From positions 34,093 to 98,092 of the forward strand of contig JAIWNF010000100.1 in NCBI GenBank assembly GCA_025093555.1: DNA of 64,000 nt. Direction: 5' to 3'. The position numbers and the translations under genes are program-made. The notes beneath the pieces were generated by a model that saw only the letters and a list, made by a program, of their open reading frames with translations, was not told the origin of the DNA and made no database searches. This document shows positions 9,503 through 63,986 of this stretch, piece by piece (position 1 is the first letter of the stretch; every line of letters begins with the position of its first letter). This stretch comes from Circinella umbellata. Its lineage: Eukaryota > Mucoromycota > Mucoromycetes > Mucorales > Lichtheimiaceae.

Positions 9503-12500
9503 ACTAGAGACAGAAAAAAAATAAACCATATAATATCTACAAGTTCGGCAGAATAGTACAGTTACTTCAAATAATAATAGAGGCAATGTTCTTCTTATGA
9601 ATAATAAAATAAGAGTTGAAGATCAATATTGTTTGGTTAATAAGCATATTTTCAACCGAATACGTAATGAGTGTTCTTTTTCTCCATTTGGTTTTTCATT
9701 AACAAATGGAGATATTCAAGGATTATCAAATTATCCTAGGACTGAAATTAACATTGAAAAAAGAAGTCTGACAGCAAAAACTACGCGACTTTGTGAGAAA
9801 ACTAAAGATGTAATTTGGTATAATAATTATTTTAATTAATTTTTTTTTCAAAAAAGGACGTTTTACTGTATTGCCAAACTCTCCTATCGTAAGGATGAAC
9901 CGCTACGTAATCAGTCAAGGTTTTACCATCGACTCAGATTAGACCAGGATATTCTTGATGCCGAATTTTCGGTACTGCTGGCCTCAGCTCCGTTATTTTG
10001 TTAAAAATGATCACATTTTCACTACTACCTTGGTGTTCGCTTGTATAAGGTCAGGAAGACAATCAAAGGTTAAAATAATGATTGATTTGCATTTTTTCCT
10101 CGCAACCTTGTCAAAGAATAATGACGATAATGAAAAGTAATTCTTATTATATGACTTATTACAAGTAGTTAGTAGTATAATAATTGTTATACTATTTCTT
10201 TTTGAAAAAATAAAGGTTAAATCATATTTGAATGATCACATGAGTAAACAGACTAGAACAGATTTTATTATACTTTACGTATCAATGAATAAGTAATTAT
10301 TGCTTACTGATCGAATCAAAAGACAAACGTATATTTGAAGTCCAAATAAATGATAACTGAATGAAACAAAGGACAAACGTATATTTCAAGTGTCAATGAG
10401 TGAACAATCACTGTCCAATGATTGTGCCTAATGAAGTGTCCATTCTCTTTTTGGCTTCTTATAGAATTTGGATCCATTGAAAGGGACCAAAACCTTTGGG
10501 ACCATGCGAAGAGGGGGTTAACTGTGTCAGGTCTTTGATGCCCTCCATGGTAAAAGATGATAGAGGGCAGTTTTTCTGATGAAGGGGACGGACAGCTGTT
10601 GGCCTCTCTTGATTGGGTAACAAACCAAGAAATAAAACAGTAGTTAGAACGAACCTAGGAGAAGCATAACATTAAAGAGGCTTATAAATCGCTTTGAAAA
10701 CCTTATACTAGATTTAAAAAATAAAATCAAATTCGTTGATATTGCTGCTCCATTTTTACTCAGTGAACGTCCCCAATGCCTTTAATAAATAATGGGGAGT
10801 TGACAAAACTCAAAGTACTCACATATAAGAATTTGATACGTAGTTTGTTTGAGGTACGTACCAACAAAATATAATGGCAGCTAAAAATACAAGCAACAGA
10901 AACGATTTTCTAGAAAATTCAACTTATTATGGTTATATTCACGGCTTTTATATACAGTTTATGAAAGATAACCATTTTGAAGTTATATATGCTAATTTCA
11001 GCCATTTTTGTCACGTTTTGGAAAAAAAAACAATGTCTGGGAAAGATGTTAATGTGATAGATCATGGCTAGCCATTCAGTACTGTGTAAAGAAAGTAAAA
11101 GTGAATTAGCGGAAAGTCTGTGGATTAAAAGATCACCGTGAAATCAACCTTATCGAAGAAGAGTTTGAAGGCAAGGAGTTAAATAACAGGACTCTTTGGT
11201 GCCTCCCCCCTCTGACTTATTAGTTCAGTCGATTAATTATAAATATACGACAGTAATGGGACGTCAAAATAAAATACATCCAATGCTCATATATCATAAT
11301 TATGAATGTGTCAAAAGTATAATTTATACAGTACCACATTGAAATTCTACTCTTGTGCCAAAAAAGTGGGAAATATGATTTGCATCAAAGTGTGTAGTAT
11401 AAAAAAATATCACCCAGTCCAAAGTTAAAAATTTCTTCCTCCCCATTGGCCAAATGGAAAAGCTAGGTACGCCAATCAAGAGTGTATTGAAGTTTCTTTT
11501 TAGACTATAAGATTTTGAGAACTTTAAAATTTTTCTACACAATGAAAACATTTCCCCCATCCCCCGTTAAACATGCTTGACAACCCTGAGTTGTTACACA
11601 CAACTGGTTTAATTTTCATTTGTGTAAACTTTTTTTTTTTTTACAAAGGGATGATAGCACTTTAATGAAATTTTGGAAATGATAGAGAGTAAATTATTTC
11701 TATTGTTTTACATTTATTGGTGCATATAATTTGACACCCTTTATTTAATGTATATTTCTACGTATTTATCCAAAATATACAAAGGTAATGAACTACTAGC
11801 TGAAATAGATGGATGATGGTGATAAAACTGGAGATGTCATGCTATTGTCTAATTAATTTTTTAAAAGTGAGTATAAGCCAAAGTACTAAAAAAGTTTTGG
11901 TGTTTTTCTTGAACCCGTTCCTTTTTATCTCTTTTTTTTACTTGTAATGTTTATTAAAATTAATGTTTGAAAAAGTATCATTAATATGACCTTGCTGTTA
12001 AAATTGCGGTCCTTGTGCTGGTAATGGAAGTGGTGGCAAGAATCGATCTTGGACAACCGACCTCTTTGAATAAAGGGACGTAGCTTCTTCAAAGATGGAA
12101 TTTTAAGATTCAAGTTGATTGAATATCAAGATTACCGCTAAAGCGATTCCACTTCTTAACAGTTTTTGCTTTTCTAAAAAAGAAACGACTTCACAATTCG
12201 TAAATGTTGAGTGTATTTACTGAATTGATATTCCCTATAAGTTTAACAAAAAAGGGTTGAGTGATGGTGCTTTTCTGATAAACTAGTTATCTCTGGAGTA
12301 AACAGTTTCTGTCATTATGATGATCAATGGTCCAAGACAAGTGACACTTTAGACCTTACGACACAAAATTTGGACTACTTTTATGGAATTCAAATACATC
12401 TTCTCCCAAGAATGGAAATTGACTGAGAATGTTTCCCAACCAACGTTCCATAGTGAGTCGGATCCATGTGTTGCAAAAGTTAAAATACAAGCGAAAGGTC

Positions 12501-14365
12501 CACTAGTAAATATAAATAGTTGTTGTTCATGTTGTTATTGAGGTTGCTTTACAATAATACGTTCCAATGTCCCAAACATGTCAGTAAGAATATTGGGGTC
12601 GAACAAATATAAAACTTACGCCTTTTTTTTTATTTATATATGACTACGTAGACTATATTTATATATTGCTTAGTTATTTTTTTCAATCTAAACCATCGCA
12701 GCTACTGCCGTGCTTGTTGATAAGATATGAAATTAACGCGAATAACATTCGGTTGTATTTGTTATAATACAATAATAAAAAAATAACAAGTATGAACGAA
12801 GAACAGCTTGCTTGAATTTTAATGATAATATGTAGGCGATATATATAATGCTTATATACGAACGACGTAGATCAATCAATAAAAAAAAAGCAAAGAGTAG
12901 TAGCCATATACCCGTTTTCTTGTTACATTTATTGTTTCATTAGACATCAAATCTCTAAGCATGCAACTTCAATTTTTGGGAACATGTGACATTAAAATTG
13001 CTGCCCAGCGACATTATTGGCCTGGCGACATTACTACTTGTTGAAAACCCTGCAGACAAATTCAGTTTTTTTTGTACTACATTTCCGTCACCCTTTTTTT
13101 TGTCATTAAACTCCCTCCCCCCCCCCTTTGTAACACTCAGAAGACAAAATAACTTTTATTATTAGAATACTTTTTTACAATGAAATAAACCACAGATAAC
13201 TCAAAGGCGAATTTATTTATTTATTTTGATCGCGTGCTCAATTAAGATTTTTTTAAACCCCCAACCCACATTTTACATATTCCTTACATCAGCCTCCGAA
13301 AAAGAATCATTGACTCGTTCTCCTCTCTCTCTCTCCCCCCACTAACATTAGCATTTTTCTTGAAGGATTGTATATGTGCATGCTTAAAAAAAGAAGAAGA
13401 AAAAAATGGTTAACTATACGAATGCAATATTTCAATAACAATGATTTCATTTTTTACTATTGACACTAACAGTAAAGAAGAGGGGGGGGGGAAAGGATAG
13501 CACAAGCGAGAAGTGAGGAATACCAAATTAAGATACTTGAATGATTTAAGTTATATAATTTGGATTGTGATCAATATTTATTTTTATTATTGTTATTGTC
13601 ATTTTTGTTGTATTGGGATTGATAAAAATAAAATAAAATAAAATATTATGATATTATACGTCTGTACGTACACTTTTAGAATCGTTTTTTATTATTATTT
13701 GGTTGCAGTATAATAAATAAATTATGTGGGGTTTCCCGGAAGGAAACTCTCTTTCTCTCAAGTAACAAATGTACTACGTACATCGTTTATATCCCATTTT
13801 CTTTATTCGAGTCCTTCCCCCCCCAAAAAAAAAATATAATGATTTCCTTTAAACAATAAATCTTTTATTTGTTCTTATTCCCTGTCAAAATAAAAATAAA
13901 CTTTTTTGTTGTTTCGATACATCTTTCACACTTTTGATAGTTTTACTGGAAAATAGTAACATGATTTTCTTTTTTTTGTAACTGGGAAAAAATTATAATT
14001 GGGAGTCAATGTCAAAAATAAGAGATTTTAAAGGTCAGAATCTTTTTATTTTTAGTGTTACCATACAATACATAAGATGTAGTACCAGAAAAATACCGTA
14101 TTAATATTCTTAATAGTTATATACTGTGGTTTCCCCTCTTTTGTTCTCGCCCAACAAAAAAAAAACTCTCTCTCTCTTTCTTTCTTTCGACTTTTGAATG
14201 AATACAACTTTAATTCTTTCGTTTTTTTTTGTAACTTAGATACCCTTCCATTTTATTATTTTGTTACAAAAAAAAAAGTTACCATAGAAACATAACTTTT
14301 GAGAACAAACTCCAAACTTTAACGCAACTAGAAGAGCCAAAAAAAAAAAATTCACTTTACACATT
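9503..14365. other. Gene-poor spacer upstream of the YANK kinase
   Basis: About 4.9 kb with no gene I can support. An 80-codon ORF at 9597-9839 (+) is unrecognised. Near 10323-10395 a 19-bp motif (ACAAACGTATATTTGAAGT and a one-base variant) occurs twice about 50 bp apart. A GC-richer block at about 10460-10640 has no recognisable coding motif. From 12900 to 14365 the sequence is dominated by homopolymers (C runs at 13118, a G run near 13480, A/T runs) and is the likely upstream regulatory region of the kinase gene. No TATA box or binding site stands out with confidence. Confidence 0.55.
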
Positions 14366-25574: not shown

Positions 25575-27506
25575 TTATTGTATAAGATATGTTCTTGGAT
25601 TCGATAAATTATTACAATCCGAAAAAAGATAATCCGGATGAATTATTTCACACGTACCGATTGCACGATAATGATTTGTATCAACAGAGTCTTTAGTAAT
25701 GACAGGATAATAATTCTTGTTACGTTCTTTGAAAGATAAAGCGCGATTTGATTCTGTATGGTTCTTGAAAGGAATTCCAGAAAGTATTACATATTGAGCA
25801 GATGTATTAAATTTTATATCTTCAGTTAATAAAAAAGATATACTTGCAGGCTCATTTATATGGACTCCTTCTTCTGTTATACTACTACTACAACTTGTTG
25901 TTCCTGATATCATTTGTTTTTGCTCTACTCCGGTGCCTTCTTGTGTATACCAATAAAGGCTTTTTTTATTTATCTTCATAAAATTTGATAAATTACAAAG
26001 CGTTTTCGAGATTCGATTGAGATTTTTAATTTTTTTGGTATCAAGATAAGATGTATTTAAACTGATAGCTTTGGTAGCAACGTGATTTGGTTGATTAGAA
26101 AAAAGTTGGGCTGTGATACCAAGACGCCAAAAATGATGATTATCAGGTATAGGTGGTATATCTTCTTGTTGTATTGTGAATGAAGAAATAGTATCATTCT
26201 CCATCCTATACGATTGTTGCTCATTTGAAATTCCAGTACATTTCACTAACATGGATCTTCCAGATATACTATAGTCGGTAAAAGTAGAGGTGATGTGGTC
26301 ATCAATAAAGATATGTTCACCGTGAACAGAAGTCCAAGAAGGTAAATTAAATTGTTGAATTGGCACTTTATATTTATTATCCGTTGTATTTGTTCTTGTA
26401 GTAGTAGTATCCTTGACTCTTCCAATATGTTTATATTCATTGTGACCACCAAAAAATAATATGGTGATATCCTTTTCAGCCAAAAGACCATAAAATCGAA
26501 TTATCAAATCATTCAGTGATTGATCATAGTCAATATCTAATTTTTGCATAATATCAGGAAATAAATTGGCGAGAGCATAGACACGATCATGATCATTTGT
26601 ACTCGTTCTCATATGTGCATAAAATAAAATATGTCTCAAACTAAGCTCTTCTGATGATTTGTTGAAAATGGTGTGAACACGTTTGAAAGGATGTGTATCT
26701 TGTGCCCACACATGAACGTTTTGACCAATAAAAAGTAATTCTTGAGATTTAACTGTTTCTTCCAAAGTCCACAATCGTTTAAACCATTGGGATTCTTCGT
26801 GTATTTTGCGTTCGGCATCATCGTACATGAGAATATCCACATGGCTATTATTATTATGTTTCTTGGTATCATCCTGTACTTTTAAATTAAATTCAGGTAC
26901 GAGTGCAACTGTACAATAAGCATTATTATAGATTCGATGCATATGTTGTATTTCTTGATGCTTTTCTTGTTGATCATTTTGATTTATACACATTTGATCG
27001 AACCAAATGTACTTTATATTAAAATCATGGCATATATGTTTAATGATATCTTGGAATGGAACATAATAACTGACATGTTTAGGCTGTTCTTTTTCTTTTT
27101 CTTTTTGTTTCGTGCTTTTAAAATAGTCATTATTTATTATAAAAGTATGCCACCATTCTTCTATAGGGTTGTTGTTGTTGTTGCTGTACTGGTTGTTGCC
27201 ATGGTTATTGATGTTGGGGGTATAGTCACGTTTGATAATGTGTTTACCTTGATCTATTCGAGTACTTTTTCCTGTTGTTTTATCAAAATTAATTTCTCCC
27301 GATTGATTCCATGAATAAGATAATGCACAATATCCTTCATTGACTTGATTGCCTGGAACCACTTGCATGTCATAGGTACGCACCAATTTACTAGGCAAAA
27401 AATTGGGTTTAGGTATTTCAGTCGGAATTCGTTTGTGTGGTTGGGAATATTTTTTAATGATTCGATTTTCTATGGTCCATTGTGGAGACTCATAGGTTAT
27501 ATACAT
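25575..27506 (-). CDS. HET (heterokaryon incompatibility) domain protein
   Basis: Single-exon ORF of 643 residues with HET-domain motifs in order: YCALSYSW (about residue 60), IKYIWFDQMCINQNDQQEK with a following HRIYNNAYCTVALV (about 165-205), and WFKRLWTLEE (about 240-250). These match the PF06985 core blocks. In filamentous Ascomycota such proteins trigger cell death on fusion of incompatible strains. Whether that role holds here is unknown. The C-terminal about 350 residues have no domain I recognise. It has no intron, while nearly all its neighbours are intron-rich. The start ATG (MYITYESPQW) is the first in frame. Confidence 0.85.
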   Translation of the reverse strand: MYITYESPQWTIENRIIKKYSQPHKRIPTEIPKPNFLPSKLVRTYDMQVVPGNQVNEGYCALSYSWNQSGEINFDKTTGKSTRIDQGKHIIKRDYTPNINNHGNNQYSNNNNNPIEEWWHTFIINNDYFKSTKQKEKEKEQPKHVSYYVPFQDIIKHICHDFNIKYIWFDQMCINQNDQQEKHQEIQHMHRIYNNAYCTVALVPEFNLKVQDDTKKHNNNSHVDILMYDDAERKIHEESQWFKRLWTLEETVKSQELLFIGQNVHVWAQDTHPFKRVHTIFNKSSEELSLRHILFYAHMRTSTNDHDRVYALANLFPDIMQKLDIDYDQSLNDLIIRFYGLLAEKDITILFFGGHNEYKHIGRVKDTTTTRTNTTDNKYKVPIQQFNLPSWTSVHGEHIFIDDHITSTFTDYSISGRSMLVKCTGISNEQQSYRMENDTISSFTIQQEDIPPIPDNHHFWRLGITAQLFSNQPNHVATKAISLNTSYLDTKKIKNLNRISKTLCNLSNFMKINKKSLYWYTQEGTGVEQKQMISGTTSCSSSITEEGVHINEPASISFLLTEDIKFNTSAQYVILSGIPFKNHTESNRALSFKERNKNYYPVITKDSVDTNHYRAIGTCEIIHPDYLFSDCNNLSNPRTYLIQ

Positions 27507-58739: not shown

Positions 58740-60437
58740 ATGTCCCAACAAACAAACTCTTCCAAGATCCAACAAGATCGTACTCCTCTTGTCGACTATC
58801 AGGATGAAAGCGACTATAGCTCCAACGTCGAAGAGTATGAAGACTTAATCCGGTCAAGTAATGAAGGTACACCGATGGACGAGGATAAAGAAGAACAAGA
58901 AGTGGTAAACCATGGCTCTCACCGTGAAGAAAAATCCACCTCCACTGTTCGTTCCCCTGGTTCTCTCTTTTCTGATTACGCTGATCTAAAAGCTGTGATG
59001 GAAAACATAATCCATCATTATAAGGTAAAGCTCGACAGGTTGTTAGTACAATACAATCGTGCGCTTCCCTCCGCTGGTAGTGAAATGCTCCAGTCGCGAC
59101 AAGCTGATATAATAAAAACCCAAAAAACTCTATTCCAATTCCGTGCCGCTTATAAACAAGAATACGTTGATGGTCAAGACCAAGGCAATACCATGGCAAG
59201 ATCCACTGATCGTATGACGGCTAAGGACGTTCCTCTGTTCCAAGTAGTTGGTTCACTTATTAAAAATAATAAAAAAGATGTCTTCGAATCAGTTGACCAT
59301 TTTTTATTACAATTTAAGAAAGTCGTTGAGGCGAATACTGGTGGCAAAATAGATAAGCACTGGTCGAAGTAGCTCCCATTGGCTTTCCCTCACGAACATG
59401 ATCATTGGTATGAACAAAAGTTGGCTGGTCGTAACTATGGTTGGTCCAAAGTATGTAAAATTATCAAAAGAAGGTTCCAATCAAGTGATTTGAAAATGTC
59501 CAAAGCTACCGAGGCATACACCATGACAATGAATAAGGGTGAAACCGTAGCTGATTATGGTACTCGTTTTTTGAACGTTTGCCGTGATGGTGGTCTCAAA
59601 GATAATGAAGGTTTGGCGTTGCGTTTCTTGGGTTCTATGGACGAACACATTCAGGAGAACGTAAAGATCGCTTGGAGTGGTCGTTATGGTACAAGAATGC
59701 CGCGTACAGTTGAAGAAGTTCTACGTGTTGCTAATGCCGTATCTTTGAACAAAAGAAGTCGTCGTCAAGACGATAATGTTGGTTCGCCAAGTCAACGACG
59801 TCGTCACAACAACAATGGTGGTTCCCAAGGTTTTCAAGGTTCCAAGAAAAACTGGTGTCCTCACCACAAGAAATACGTGTCACATAAGCCTCAAGATTGT
59901 CATTTACATATTGAAAAGGTAAATGCGTCGTTGTCCTCCGTGGCTGAAAAACGATTTAAGAGAGGTGAATGTGTACATTGTGGGTCGAAATGGACCAAAG
60001 AACATCGTTGTGAAGAATACCGTAATGCTCAAAAGAAGAAGAGGGAAGAAAAACAAAACGTAAGTTTGAACGCGATTTCTACCTCTACCCCGAATAATTC
60101 CGATACTGCCAATCAATCAGAGCAGATGGAAATTAGCCATCCCGGTGATACAGTTTTGGAAGAACTATTAGCCGAAGAATATGATAAACTCGAGGCTTTT
60201 GCAGCTGGTAAGAACTTGAACAATACAAGTCTACAAAAATCAAATAAAATTAAAAAAGAAAAAGATTTAAATGATTCCTCGCAATCACTAATCAGATCTC
60301 CTATTTTAATACAGAATAAACGCTGTTTCGGCTTGGTCGACTCTGGTGCTGAAATTTCAGTTATAGATAGGAAACTCTGTATAAATAATAATTGGTCAAT
60401 AAATTATATTAATGGAAAAAATAAAATATGCTGGTAG
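58740..60437 (+). pseudogene. gypsy gag-protease, one in-frame stop and frameshift
   Basis: Starts MSQQTNSSKIQQDRTPL. The capsid-like retrotransposon gag region (ADYGTRFLNVCRDGGL.. LALRFLGSM) is followed by a basic stretch. Zinc knuckle: CVHCGSKWTKEHRC. The protease signature is CFGLVDSGAEISVIDRK (DSGA, about 60325-60375). The frame is interrupted by TAG at 59370-59372 and continues in the same frame. It shifts by one at the A-rich tract near 60410-60430, where the pol frame takes over. The TAG could be a lesion or, less likely, a programmed readthrough. Confidence 0.75.
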
Positions 60438-60985
60438 TGGTGATCAACGTGCTAGAATTGGTACTTGTGGCCCATTAAAAATTAGCTATAATAATCATAA
60501 ACCTATGTTTACTTTTGAAGTGATGGATTTGGAATGTGAAGAGATGATTATTGGAAAAGATTTGATGCCTCACATCGGTCTTGCCATAACTGGAATAGCG
60601 GTTAAATGGGATGATATGGGAAATAATTCTGTAAAAAATAATAATCCAATAGACCCTGATCAAGAACTAAATACTGATCATCCAGTGGGTACTCCAGATC
60701 AAAGAAATACTTTTTTTAAAGAAGTTCAACCTTTACTGGATCAAAATGCAAAAATTCCATTATCCTTATATTGTCCTCTTGAAGAATCAATAATTGAATT
60801 ACCAACATCAGAAGGTCTGCCTTCATTTCAAAGACAATATCCTCATCCATATCATTTAAGACCGGTTATCGATGAAACTGTTAAAAAATGGTTAGATGAT
60901 GGTGTTCTTGTAAGAGCACCTGTTAATACTACATGGAATAGTCCTCTTACTATAACTGATAAAAGAAACTCACAAGGAGAAGTTA
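60412..60985 (+). pseudogene. gypsy pol, protease end and N-terminal RT segment, cut by transposon
   Basis: Reads MEKIKYAGSGDQRARIG.. through a protease flap-like region (IIGKDLMPHIGLAITGIAV), a linker (HLRPVIDETVKKWLDDGVLV) and the RT start WNSPLTITDKRNSQGEV. The natural frame stops at the TTA target site (60983-60985) where the Harbinger-like element begins; the apparent extension to 61026 is transposon end sequence. It continues at 62806. Confidence 0.75.
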
Positions 60986-62805
60986 GAGGAACAAACCCAT
61001 TTTATAAAATCTTATTTATTTTATAATATTTTATTATTTTTTAATATATAATTTTATATAAAAAATAAAACTAAAATTGAATTTTTCTATATTTATAAAA
61101 ATATGATACAACATGACTTCTATGGACTTTATGGCTGATGAATATATTTATGAAAATTCTGAACAATATGAAAAATATAAGACTGATTTAAAAAAAGAAA
61201 TTGATAATATTGTATTAAATAAATGGGGTTTTTTAGATAAAGATTGGGGTAAAATTACAAAAAAATATAAACATCGAACTGAATTAAAAGAAATTAAAGA
61301 TATAAATGCTATTAAAAATGAATTAAAAAATAAATTAGGGTATATTTCTGTTTTCTTCTTTTTAAATGAATTATATACAAACAAAGAATATCCAGGACCT
61401 TATTTAGAGATAGATAAAGGTTTATATTTAATATATCATCTTATAAATGGTCATTCTCATATTGAAATAAATAAAGATATATCTTCAACATCATATTATA
61501 GATTATATAAAAGTTTTTGGATTAATAATTATGAAAAATTAAATAAAAAAGTAAATGGTTATTTATTAGATATGTTTAGTAATATTAAAATAAGAATTTT
61601 ATCTGCTCTTATAAAAAATCCTAAATATTTTAAACATATAACATTATTATTAGATGGGCATGATAGTACTATTAAATATAATAAACCAGATATTTCTTTA
61701 CAAAAAAAATGGTCGTATAAATTAAAAACAAGTGGATTACGTACACAAGTTGTAATAGATATTAATGAAATGGTTATAATTGTTAGTAAAAGTGAATTAT
61801 GTGGTGAAAGTAATGATGGTTCAATGTTTCTTAATATGAAATTATATAATAAAATTTATAAACATGACTGCATTGCTTTTGATGGAGGATATACTTTATT
61901 TATAAACCAATTTATTGAATTATGTATTAGTAAAGGATATGATGATATAAGTGATAAAAACTTTTTTTATCCTATACGGAAAGAAAATAATATTGAATTA
62001 AATGAACAAGAAAAATATTTTAATAAAGTGTTTGGGAAATTTAGAAATACAGTAGAAAATCAGTTCTGTGAATTACATAATACATTTAAAAGATTTAGTA
62101 ATAACAATTCAACAATTAAAACATCTGATTATAAATATATAAATTTACAATTAAAGGTTTCTTTTTTATTAAAAAATATTAAACGGTTTTCTGAAAAATT
62201 TAATATAATTACTCAACCACATCATAAACTTTGGGAAATAAATAATTTTGAATTTCCTTGTGAACAAAGATTAATTGATATTGTTTATATAAATGAAATG
62301 GAACAGTTAGAAAAAATAAATGAAATAACAAAATTACAAAAAGAAATTATGAATTTAACATTAGATAATAATATGATATTAGATATTGAAGAAGATGAAA
62401 ATGAAAATGAAATTAATGATGAAAGTGAGGATGATTTTCCAGAATTAAAAGGTAAAATAAAAAAGAGAAAATATAGATCAAAATCAATAAATAAAATTAA
62501 AGATATAAATAAAGTAAGAGATAAAAATAAAGTTGATAATATATATGAAATAGAAAATATTATTGAACATAAAATTATTGATAAAAGTTATAAATTTTTA
62601 GTAAAATGGAAAGGATTTAATAGTAATGATAATTCATGGATATCTTTGTCTTCTTTTAATGAAAAAGAACTATTAGTCGATTATTTATCAAAGAAAAATA
62701 TACTGATACCAGGAATTAATTTATAATTTAAAAATTTAAAATTGTATTAAGATATAAGTAATATTTCAAGTTATATTATTATTTTATATTTATGGAATAT
62801 TCCTC
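60986..62805 (+). mobile_element. PIF/Harbinger-like DNA transposon, apparently complete, with chromodomain transposase
   Basis: 1820 bp, flanked by TTA at 60983-60985 and 62806-62808, the 3-bp TWA duplication expected for PIF/Harbinger. Ends are imperfect inverted repeats of about 25 bp: left GAGGAACAAACCC then ..TATAAAAT; right, reverse-complemented, GAGGAATATTCC then ..TATAAAAT. Removing the element and one TTA rejoins the host RT frame, giving GEV-T-RKRICLN, which strongly supports these boundaries. The element carries one intact ORF and is markedly more AT-rich than its host. An intact ORF inside a decayed element suggests recent insertion. Confidence 0.88.
61113..62726 (+). CDS. DDE (DDE_Tnp_4/Harbinger-type) transposase fused to a C-terminal chromodomain
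   Basis: Intact 537-residue ORF starting MTSMDFMADEYIY. Candidate catalytic acids are Asp181/Asp184 in TLLLDGHDST, Asp257 in CIAFDGGYT, and Glu315 in NTVENQFCELHNTFKRF. The spacing and the VE..F..LH..F block fit the DDE_Tnp_4 fold of Harbinger/IS5-like transposases. A YYRLYKSFW helical region (residues 105-150) may be the DNA-binding part. An acidic linker (IEEDENENEINDESEDDF) and a basic stretch (KKRKYRSKS, likely nuclear localisation) follow. A chromodomain sits at about 478-526: YEIENIIEHK..YKFLVKWKGFNSNDNSWISLSSF. Aromatic-cage-type residues Tyr/Trp/Trp are present. Codons strongly prefer A/T at third position. Typical Harbingers have a separate Myb-like partner; none is seen here. Confidence 0.85.
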   Translation: MTSMDFMADEYIYENSEQYEKYKTDLKKEIDNIVLNKWGFLDKDWGKITKKYKHRTELKEIKDINAIKNELKNKLGYISVFFFLNELYTNKEYPGPYLEIDKGLYLIYHLINGHSHIEINKDISSTSYYRLYKSFWINNYEKLNKKVNGYLLDMFSNIKIRILSALIKNPKYFKHITLLLDGHDSTIKYNKPDISLQKKWSYKLKTSGLRTQVVIDINEMVIIVSKSELCGESNDGSMFLNMKLYNKIYKHDCIAFDGGYTLFINQFIELCISKGYDDISDKNFFYPIRKENNIELNEQEKYFNKVFGKFRNTVENQFCELHNTFKRFSNNNSTIKTSDYKYINLQLKVSFLLKNIKRFSEKFNIITQPHHKLWEINNFEFPCEQRLIDIVYINEMEQLEKINEITKLQKEIMNLTLDNNMILDIEEDENENEINDESEDDFPELKGKIKKRKYRSKSINKIKDINKVRDKNKVDNIYEIENIIEHKIIDKSYKFLVKWKGFNSNDNSWISLSSFNEKELLVDYLSKKNILIPGINL

Positions 62806-63986
62806 TTACCAGAAAACGGATCTGCCTTAATGTGAGATTACTCAACAATAGACTGTTGACCAATGATAAACATCCACTCCCATTAATTAAAGATATTTTT
62901 AATGACCTTGCTGGATCAACTGTTTTTACAACGATCGACTTGTCCAGTGCATATCATCGTTTTCGTATAAAAAAAGAGTTTCAGGATCGTACTGCCTTTA
63001 CTCATAATAATAATCAATTTGTGTTTCAAGCATGCCCATTCGGATTAAAACCTATTGCATCTCGTTTCCAAAGAGTTATGAGTCGTATCTTTTATGATAT
63101 GCCATTCGTAAGATGTTACATTGATGACATCGTAATTAAATCAAAATCAATAGAATCTCATAAAGATCATGTCATACAAGTCATAAAAGCATTAAGCAAA
63201 AATAATATGATCATTAATCATAAAAAATCTAAATTTATGCAAACACAAATTTATTTATTGGGATTCCGTATCTCACAACATGGACGTCAAATAGAACGCA
63301 GTAAAATAACAAACGTACTTAACTGGCCCATACCAAAAACAGGAAAACAAATTGAAAAACTTCTTAGTACTGTTAATTTTCTACGGGATTTCTTACCAAA
63401 TGCATCAAAAATGTGTGCTAAGCTTGATTCCTTAAGAAAATTAGGTTCTTTACATAATGTTTGGAATAACGAACATCTTCAAAGTTTTAATATGATCAAA
63501 CGAGCATTAACATATAATGTTTTACTTGAATTTCCTAATATGAATGAGCCTATGTATGTAGCAACTGACGCTAGTTTATTTGGCATAGCTGCTTGCTTAT
63601 TTCAACGTATAAATGGAAAAGATCATTATATATCTTTCATGGCACGTGCATTAAATAAATCGGAACGTAATTATCCTGCTACAAAACGTGAATTACTTGC
63701 AGTAGTATTTGCATTAACAAAATTCCATACATATCTATGGGCACATCCATTTACACTTTATACCGATTGCAAAGCTTTAACGTATTTACATACACAAAGA
63801 ATAGCCAATCCCATGATGATAAATTGGTTTGACATTATTCTTAATTACACATTCAATGTTGTACATTTACCAGGATTACAAAACGTACTACCTGATAACC
63901 TTTCTCGCTTGTTCACCCCAAGTGAACCGCTGGAGGGGGCATCCACTTATTTCACCCCGGTTGAGTTTGAAATAATTTCAAAGTAG
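62806..63986 (+). pseudogene. gypsy pol, RT core and RNase H
   Basis: Continuation of pol after the transposon. RT motifs: STVFTTIDLSSAYHRFRI, FQACPFGLKPIASRFQRVM, the catalytic YIDD in RCYIDDIVIKS, and LLGFRISQHGRQI. RNase H motifs: VATDASLFGIAACLF (Asp), RNYPATKRELLAVVFAL (Glu) and LYTDCKALTYL (Asp). The reading ends LEGASTYFTPVEF.. with TAG at 63984-63986. No integrase zinc finger is visible in the remaining 14 bp. This segment is itself open, but the gene is broken upstream. Confidence 0.85.

Follow-up and report, generated by a model that had tools for sequence, protein, structure and literature searches.

The element and its host gene

The window analyzed here is a 64,000-nucleotide stretch of Circinella umbellata contig JAIWNF010000100.1 (positions 34,093 to 98,092 of the forward strand). 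Within it lies an 1820-bp transposon of 18.4% GC (60986..62805, + strand), bordered by TTA target site duplications (TSDs) at 60983..60985 and 62806..62808; a second copy lies on contig C96. The terminal inverted repeats (TIRs) lie at 60986..61010 (GAGGAACAAACCC..., + strand) and 62781..62805 (reverse complement GAGGAATATTCC..., + strand) and are imperfect, with 17 of the 25 outermost bases agreeing between the two ends. The sole open reading frame (ORF; 61113..62726, + strand) is intact and encodes a 537-aa fusion of a transposase and a chromodomain. Only 127 and 79 bp of the element fall outside it, leaving no room for a second ORF. The C96 copy is 99.2% identical to the window element across 1826 bp, and similarity stops at the element and its TSD. 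Because this copy shares the borders exactly and is flanked by a separate TTA duplication at a different genomic site, the ends of the window element can be considered proven. The preliminary description, which had been made from the window sequence without database searches, had placed these ends and the TTA duplication exactly.

The flanks of the element form one reading frame once one TTA copy is left out. The left part of this pol frame (60403..60984, + strand) is continuous with the right part and yields no Pfam match on its own, while the right part (62808..63986, + strand) contains RVT_1 (5.2e-24) and RNase H. The single frame across the junction and these downstream domains place the element inside the reverse transcriptase gene of a retrotransposon, here of the Ty3 type. 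The earlier proposal that excision would restore the host reverse transcriptase frame is thus borne out.

Both domains of the predicted protein are recognized by Pfam above their curated cutoffs. DDE_Tnp_4 matches residues 188-338 (3.3e-10; 40.2 bits, compared to a cutoff of 24.8). We let the catalytic region begin at D181 and close with this match (residues 181-338; 61653..62126, + strand); it carries the triad D181 (LDGHD), D257 (DGGY) and E315 (VENQF). A variable linker (residues 401-474; 62313..62534, + strand) separates this part of the protein from a C-terminal chromodomain (residues 475-528; 62535..62696, + strand), in which Chromo matches residues 478-520 (2.2e-8) and Y478, W499 and F502 form the aromatic cage. 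No domain beyond these two was found in Pfam at E values up to 1, and a single-sequence AlphaFold model of the protein was unusable (mean pLDDT, 36.9). The preliminary description had read a DDE transposase and a C-terminal chromodomain in one intact ORF and had named the absence of either domain as grounds for abandoning that reading; Pfam finds both. A chance chromodomain-like stretch is ruled out by the Pfam matches, together with the match of the family profile to HP1-class structures described below.

A constrained fusion shared by a transposon family

A search of its own 50.8 Mb genome with the window protein gave 88 matches, and the fusion is therefore not a chance event at one locus. 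Merging matches within 3 kb of one another gave 74 family loci, many of them fragments. A Chromo match lies within 2.5 kb of 57 of these 74, compared to 1 of 29 other DDE_Tnp_4 loci; this is a measure of closeness rather than proof of fusion, which is seen directly in 13 rows of our alignment. The one other DDE_Tnp_4 locus with Chromo nearby (C189:320277) looks like a missed relative, and L056, which encodes a transposase with a strong DDE_Tnp_4 match (3.3e-31) in the same genome, lacks any match to a chromodomain. The preliminary description had counted further copies without the chromodomain and with divergent ends as evidence against its reading. In this family list with its many fragments, 17 of 74 loci have no Chromo match within 2.5 kb; the other subfamilies do differ in end sequence, yet they carry the chromodomain.

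We distinguish subfamilies A (the window element, the C96 copy, a damaged copy on C90 and a split copy on C189), B (L003, L007), C (L004/L005), D (L013 and others), E (L016 and others) and F (L024, L027). The ends of subfamily C are not definable, and resolved copies in subfamilies A, B and F measure 1.8-2.0 kb. Among the four copies of subfamily A, only that in the window retains a full ORF; the C96 copy has one stop. On contig C3, the window element is the only family transposase match among the matches listed. Inverted pairs of family matches occur on C130 (496942/508994), C198 (3752/7261), C79 (356957/363167) and C52 (361/16536). Those on C130 and C198 belong to near-perfect palindromes of several kb, of biological origin or an assembly artifact, which inflate local clustering.

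Our alignment comprises 14 members, some of them near-identical, with 10 distinct sequences reaching the C-terminus. Apart from the near-identical C96 copy, the aligned relatives share 41-59% identity with the window protein. DDE_Tnp_4 and Chromo are each matched in 13 of the 14 (Pfam, E up to 0.1). In the rows covering each position, the catalytic triad is kept almost throughout: D181 in 13/13, D257 in 13/14 (N in L026) and E315 in 14/14. The aromatic cage, whose positions we assigned by what we take to be the HP1 numbering, is likewise retained (Y/F478, W499, Y/F502) in all 13 rows that reach the C-terminus, representing the 10 distinct sequences. When the family profile was compared with solved structures, HP1-class chromodomains were the best matches (CBX5, 1.5e-12; HP1 entry 1kna, 1.6e-10). 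Chromo_shadow matched only weakly, in 4 of 14 scanned members (best, 0.013), and Chromo was the stronger match. The residue after W509 (position 510) is I, V or L in 13/13 rows, while HP1 presumably has Glu at the corresponding residue; the specificity for the histone mark may therefore differ from that of HP1.

Constraint on the chromodomain is also apparent at the level of divergence. Among 7 representatives, the DDE region is best conserved (mean pairwise identity, 0.55), followed by the chromodomain (0.44) and the linker (0.32). We estimated NG86 dN/dS for 11 hand-chosen pairs that share sequences; the estimates are rough, as the DNA is so rich in AT and synonymous sites in some pairs approach saturation. 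The chromodomain gave values of 0.19-0.66, the linker 0.27-1.80 and the DDE region 0.19-0.46. In this set, the chromodomain value was lower than that of the linker in 11/11 pairs and higher than that of the DDE region in 8/11.

Target sites, partner genes and classification

An exact 3-bp TSD was present at 13 of the 14 sites with both ends defined, the exception being L036 of subfamily E, which has no matching TSD. The duplicated sequences were TTA (twice), ATA (three times) and AGT, AGA, TAC, ATG, AAT, ACA, CAG and CTT (once each). TTA occurs only at the window and C96 copies, and the 11 other exact TSDs do not fit TWA. PHIS groups described to date, among them ISL2EU, Spy, Pangu, Nuwa and PHISTA, include some that lack a TSD (available sections of PMC4482050 and PMC12730594); the fixed patterns given there are TWA, AT, ANT, CWG and CTNAG (PMC4482050) and, for one group, TA (PMC12730594). 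Single TSDs of our family fit TWA (2), ANT (2: AGT, AAT) or CWG (1: CAG), and no pattern fits the whole family. None of the rules of Nuwa, Pangu, PHISTA and ISL2EU (CWG or CTNAG, ANT, TA, AT) holds across the 13 exact TSDs.

Second genes differ among the subfamilies. In subfamily E, a second ORF of 163-169 aa lies tail to tail with the transposase. Its small protein belongs to an ORF family (L036:5349-5858, L041:6038-6529, L039:2556-3047 and others) whose full members run to about 160-172 aa, and a genome search with it gave 96 matches. Of 12 partner loci retrieved, 7 have a match to a chromodomain transposase, always tail to tail, and 5 have none within the stretch; the same arrangement, with the partner in at least fragmentary form, recurs at L010, L019, L026 and L008. 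It is rich in Cys and His, with C87, C104, H107 and H111 invariant in 9 aligned copies. Three of these ORFs were scanned and gave no credible Pfam match and no Myb/SANT domain at E up to 1. This protein may bind zinc or stand in for the Myb-like protein. No partner match was found inside the resolved elements of subfamilies A, B and F.

Subfamily D is organized differently. Its 4036-bp element (L031:2501-6536 on contig C146, with sisters on C66, C75, C94 and C162) is present in at least 5 near-identical copies with five different 3-bp TSDs; one of the copies is itself interrupted by an insertion. The second ORF encodes a 699-aa geminivirus-type Rep and is convergent with the transposase ORF, 9 bp apart. 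Because a Gemini_AL1 profile search of the genome returned nothing at threshold, this assignment rests on a Pfam match of the protein to Gemini_AL1 (0.00098, below the curated cutoff), on matches to Rep chains of known structure (5.7e-7) and on the motifs HVH, YCMK and GPSNVGKT, read by eye, which we take to denote HUH and helicase functions. Gemini_AL1 was the only Pfam match, and PHROGs gave none. In NCBIfam, neither the transposase nor the Rep nor the partner ORF had a match. Outside the window, contig C3 carries a stretch (12081-13529) that is 93% identical to part of the Rep gene of subfamily D and contains stops.

A combination of Rep and transposase is not new, as it is already described in truffle: the geminivirus-like transposon of Tuber melanosporum has TIRs and combines a Rep gene with transposase ORFs (PMC3198968), and it resembles subfamily D, alone in our family, in these respects. 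The TIRs of the Tuber element are 37 bp long, its ORFs are interrupted or truncated and a TSD is not obvious; its transposase type is unnamed in section 8 of the paper; subfamily D, in contrast, has 3-bp TSDs and a chromodomain transposase. A full-text search of the open-access literature found no report of Rep together with a chromodomain transposase.

At the superfamily level, these features agree with PHIS transposons: DDE_Tnp_4 scores above its cutoff, and the elements have short TIRs and a small TSD (within 0-3 bp). Like PIF/Harbinger and other PHIS groups, the family combines a DDE_Tnp_4-type domain with short TIRs starting with G and a 3-bp TSD; unlike them, it has a C-terminal chromodomain and an unfixed TSD, and no Myb/SANT partner was found. 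Judged by the strict PIF/Harbinger definition, the family falls outside on the TWA target (TTA at 2/14 sites), although the window element alone conforms to it, and neither the window element nor the three scanned partner ORFs supplied a Myb/SANT second ORF. We therefore reject an assignment of the family to ordinary PIF/Harbinger at the group level, by TSD and partner, and keep the superfamily. The term "Harbinger-like" used in the preliminary description holds for the catalytic domain and the superfamily, but not for a 3-bp TSD without fixed sequence or for a partner that is not Myb-like by Pfam. The window element is most appropriately assigned to a new chromodomain lineage within the PHIS superfamily. 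Within this lineage, with its loosened target sequence and changed partner gene, the fusion is real: it is repeated and constrained.

Insertion sites and the role of the chromodomain

We scanned 12 insertion sites (20 of 95 flanking frames, without a background set). Three of them fall inside or directly adjoin a gene of another mobile element that Pfam matches strongly: the reverse transcriptase gene in the window, a MULE gene at L003 (6.5e-17) with a frame that extends as far as the insertion, and a Tc1 gene at L039 (DDE_3, 3.9e-18), whose frame is continuous across the site. Two more lie beside a mobile-element gene (L037, DDE_3 at 1.3e-4, below the curated cutoff; L031, IS1595-type at 9.9e-10, ~1.2 kb away). 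L002 gave a weak hint (0.0037), and nothing informative was found at the other 6.

We also compared the family with chromodomain-free Tc1 elements, using locus lists that are lower bounds (the Tc1 set derives from 150 of 164 matches). A sister copy lies within 10 kb of 32 of the 74 family loci (2.1 expected at random) and, among the matches listed, of 35 of 147 Tc1 loci (8.2 expected; Fisher p 0.005 between the two). The clustering signal vanishes once loci within 15 kb are merged, and transposition to nearby sites, palindromic duplications and selection may account for it. An LTR integrase lies within 10 kb of 9/74 family loci, compared to 4.2% at random (binomial p 0.004), and of 10/147 Tc1 loci among the matches listed (Fisher p 0.21 versus the family). 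Other comparisons of the two groups near LTR integrases gave p values of 0.14-0.38, none significant. As the family does not differ significantly from Tc1, its excess over random may only show where mobile elements survive. The earlier suggestion that the chromodomain targets silenced chromatin is favored by the cage and the constraint on the domain, while the map of insertions near LTR integrases does not separate the family from Tc1.

The reading that we prefer, and think somewhat better than even, is that this is a chromodomain-bearing PHIS-type lineage whose predicted methyl-lysine reader steers insertion to silenced, repeat-rich DNA. In such a model, the transposase would excise the element at its inverted repeats and join it to a 3-bp staggered target. 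The chromodomain would hold the transposase on nucleosomes with a methyl-lysine mark, most likely H3K9me, such that insertions would be biased toward silenced, repeat-rich DNA, where harm is small. A transposase that both docks and catalyzes might let the window subfamily manage with a single gene or borrow the partner of a sister subfamily. A broader version, on which we are distinctly more tentative, would have target choice in this lineage shift from DNA sequence to chromatin, with the 3-bp target unfixed and the Myb partner replaced by the Cys/His-rich protein, by the Rep of the 4-kb subfamily, which might amplify excised DNA, or by nothing in the single-gene window form. Chromatin-guided insertion is compatible with the insertion map and remains our leading reading, plausible but unproven.

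The main competitor, to which we give appreciably less credence than to chromatin targeting, holds that the chromodomain does not choose targets and instead serves regulation or complex formation, by binding the element's own silenced copies, recruiting or evading HP1, dimerizing, or binding RNA or DNA; the position of copies would then reflect survival, with genic insertions lost. Such a role would fit the lack of a significant difference from Tc1 in closeness to LTR integrases, the weak Chromo_shadow match in some members and the departure at position 510 from the presumed HP1 residue. It accords less well with a methyl-lysine cage kept in 13/13 rows and with Chromo, not Chromo_shadow, being the stronger Pfam match. 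It is improbable, in our estimation, that an ordinary PIF/Harbinger element gained its chromodomain by chance and without a conserved role: 28 of the 29 other DDE_Tnp_4 loci do lack a Chromo match within 2.5 kb, but the fusion is common to 10 distinct sequences, with relatives as divergent as described above, and its chromodomain is more constrained than the linker. Less probable still is a domesticated host gene. The window copy being the only full ORF among four close copies could be taken to suggest one, but we reject this on account of the TIRs, the TSDs and the near-identical second copy at another TTA site.

Several known systems resemble this arrangement in part. Chromoviruses, which are Ty3 retrotransposons, also have a DDE recombinase with a C-terminal chromodomain, in their case the integrase, and Gao and colleagues reportedly proposed in 2008 that this chromodomain targets heterochromatin. 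In Maverick/Polinton elements, the chromodomain belongs to the integrase of giant elements. These elements are, like the present family, DNA transposons with a chromodomain (PMC10799480, in the passages available). Precedents for chromatin- or DNA-methylation-related modules acquired by PHIS transposons are HarbingerS, with a SET domain, and PHISTA, with TET/JBP (available sections of PMC12730594); as described there, these modules are enzymes (a SET histone methyltransferase and a TET/JBP dioxygenase), while here a reader domain is fused to the transposase. A full-text search of the open-licence literature found no chromodomain-bearing Harbinger transposase. In the portions retrieved of open-access papers naming chromodomain, harbinger, transposase and fungi, the chromodomain referred to Ty3 elements, host proteins or references, and the corresponding portions of PMC10799480, PMC12730594, PMC4482050, PMC4007536, PMC7060042 and PMC3145265 contain no such transposase.

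If chromatin-guided insertion holds, Ty3 integrases and a DNA transposase would have solved the problem of safe landing by gaining the same reader domain, and a small single-gene element would make chromatin-guided DNA transposition testable. It would also suggest that a reader domain can loosen the sequence preference of a transposase, a point of relevance to programmable insertion tools.

Searches for relatives found no match to the transposase in viral contigs or phages and none to the Rep in viral contigs or plasmids. Base composition differs within the family: elements of subfamilies A, B, E and F have 18-22% GC and a transposase GC3 of 8-11%, while the GC3 of the subfamily D transposase is 26% and that of three window ORFs compared is about 24%. 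Subfamilies A, B, E and F may have entered this genome recently, from a donor very rich in AT. Elsewhere in the window, an ORF whose HET domain (1e-17) points to a fungal host, perhaps an early-diverging one (Mucoromycota), lies at 25575-27506 (- strand).
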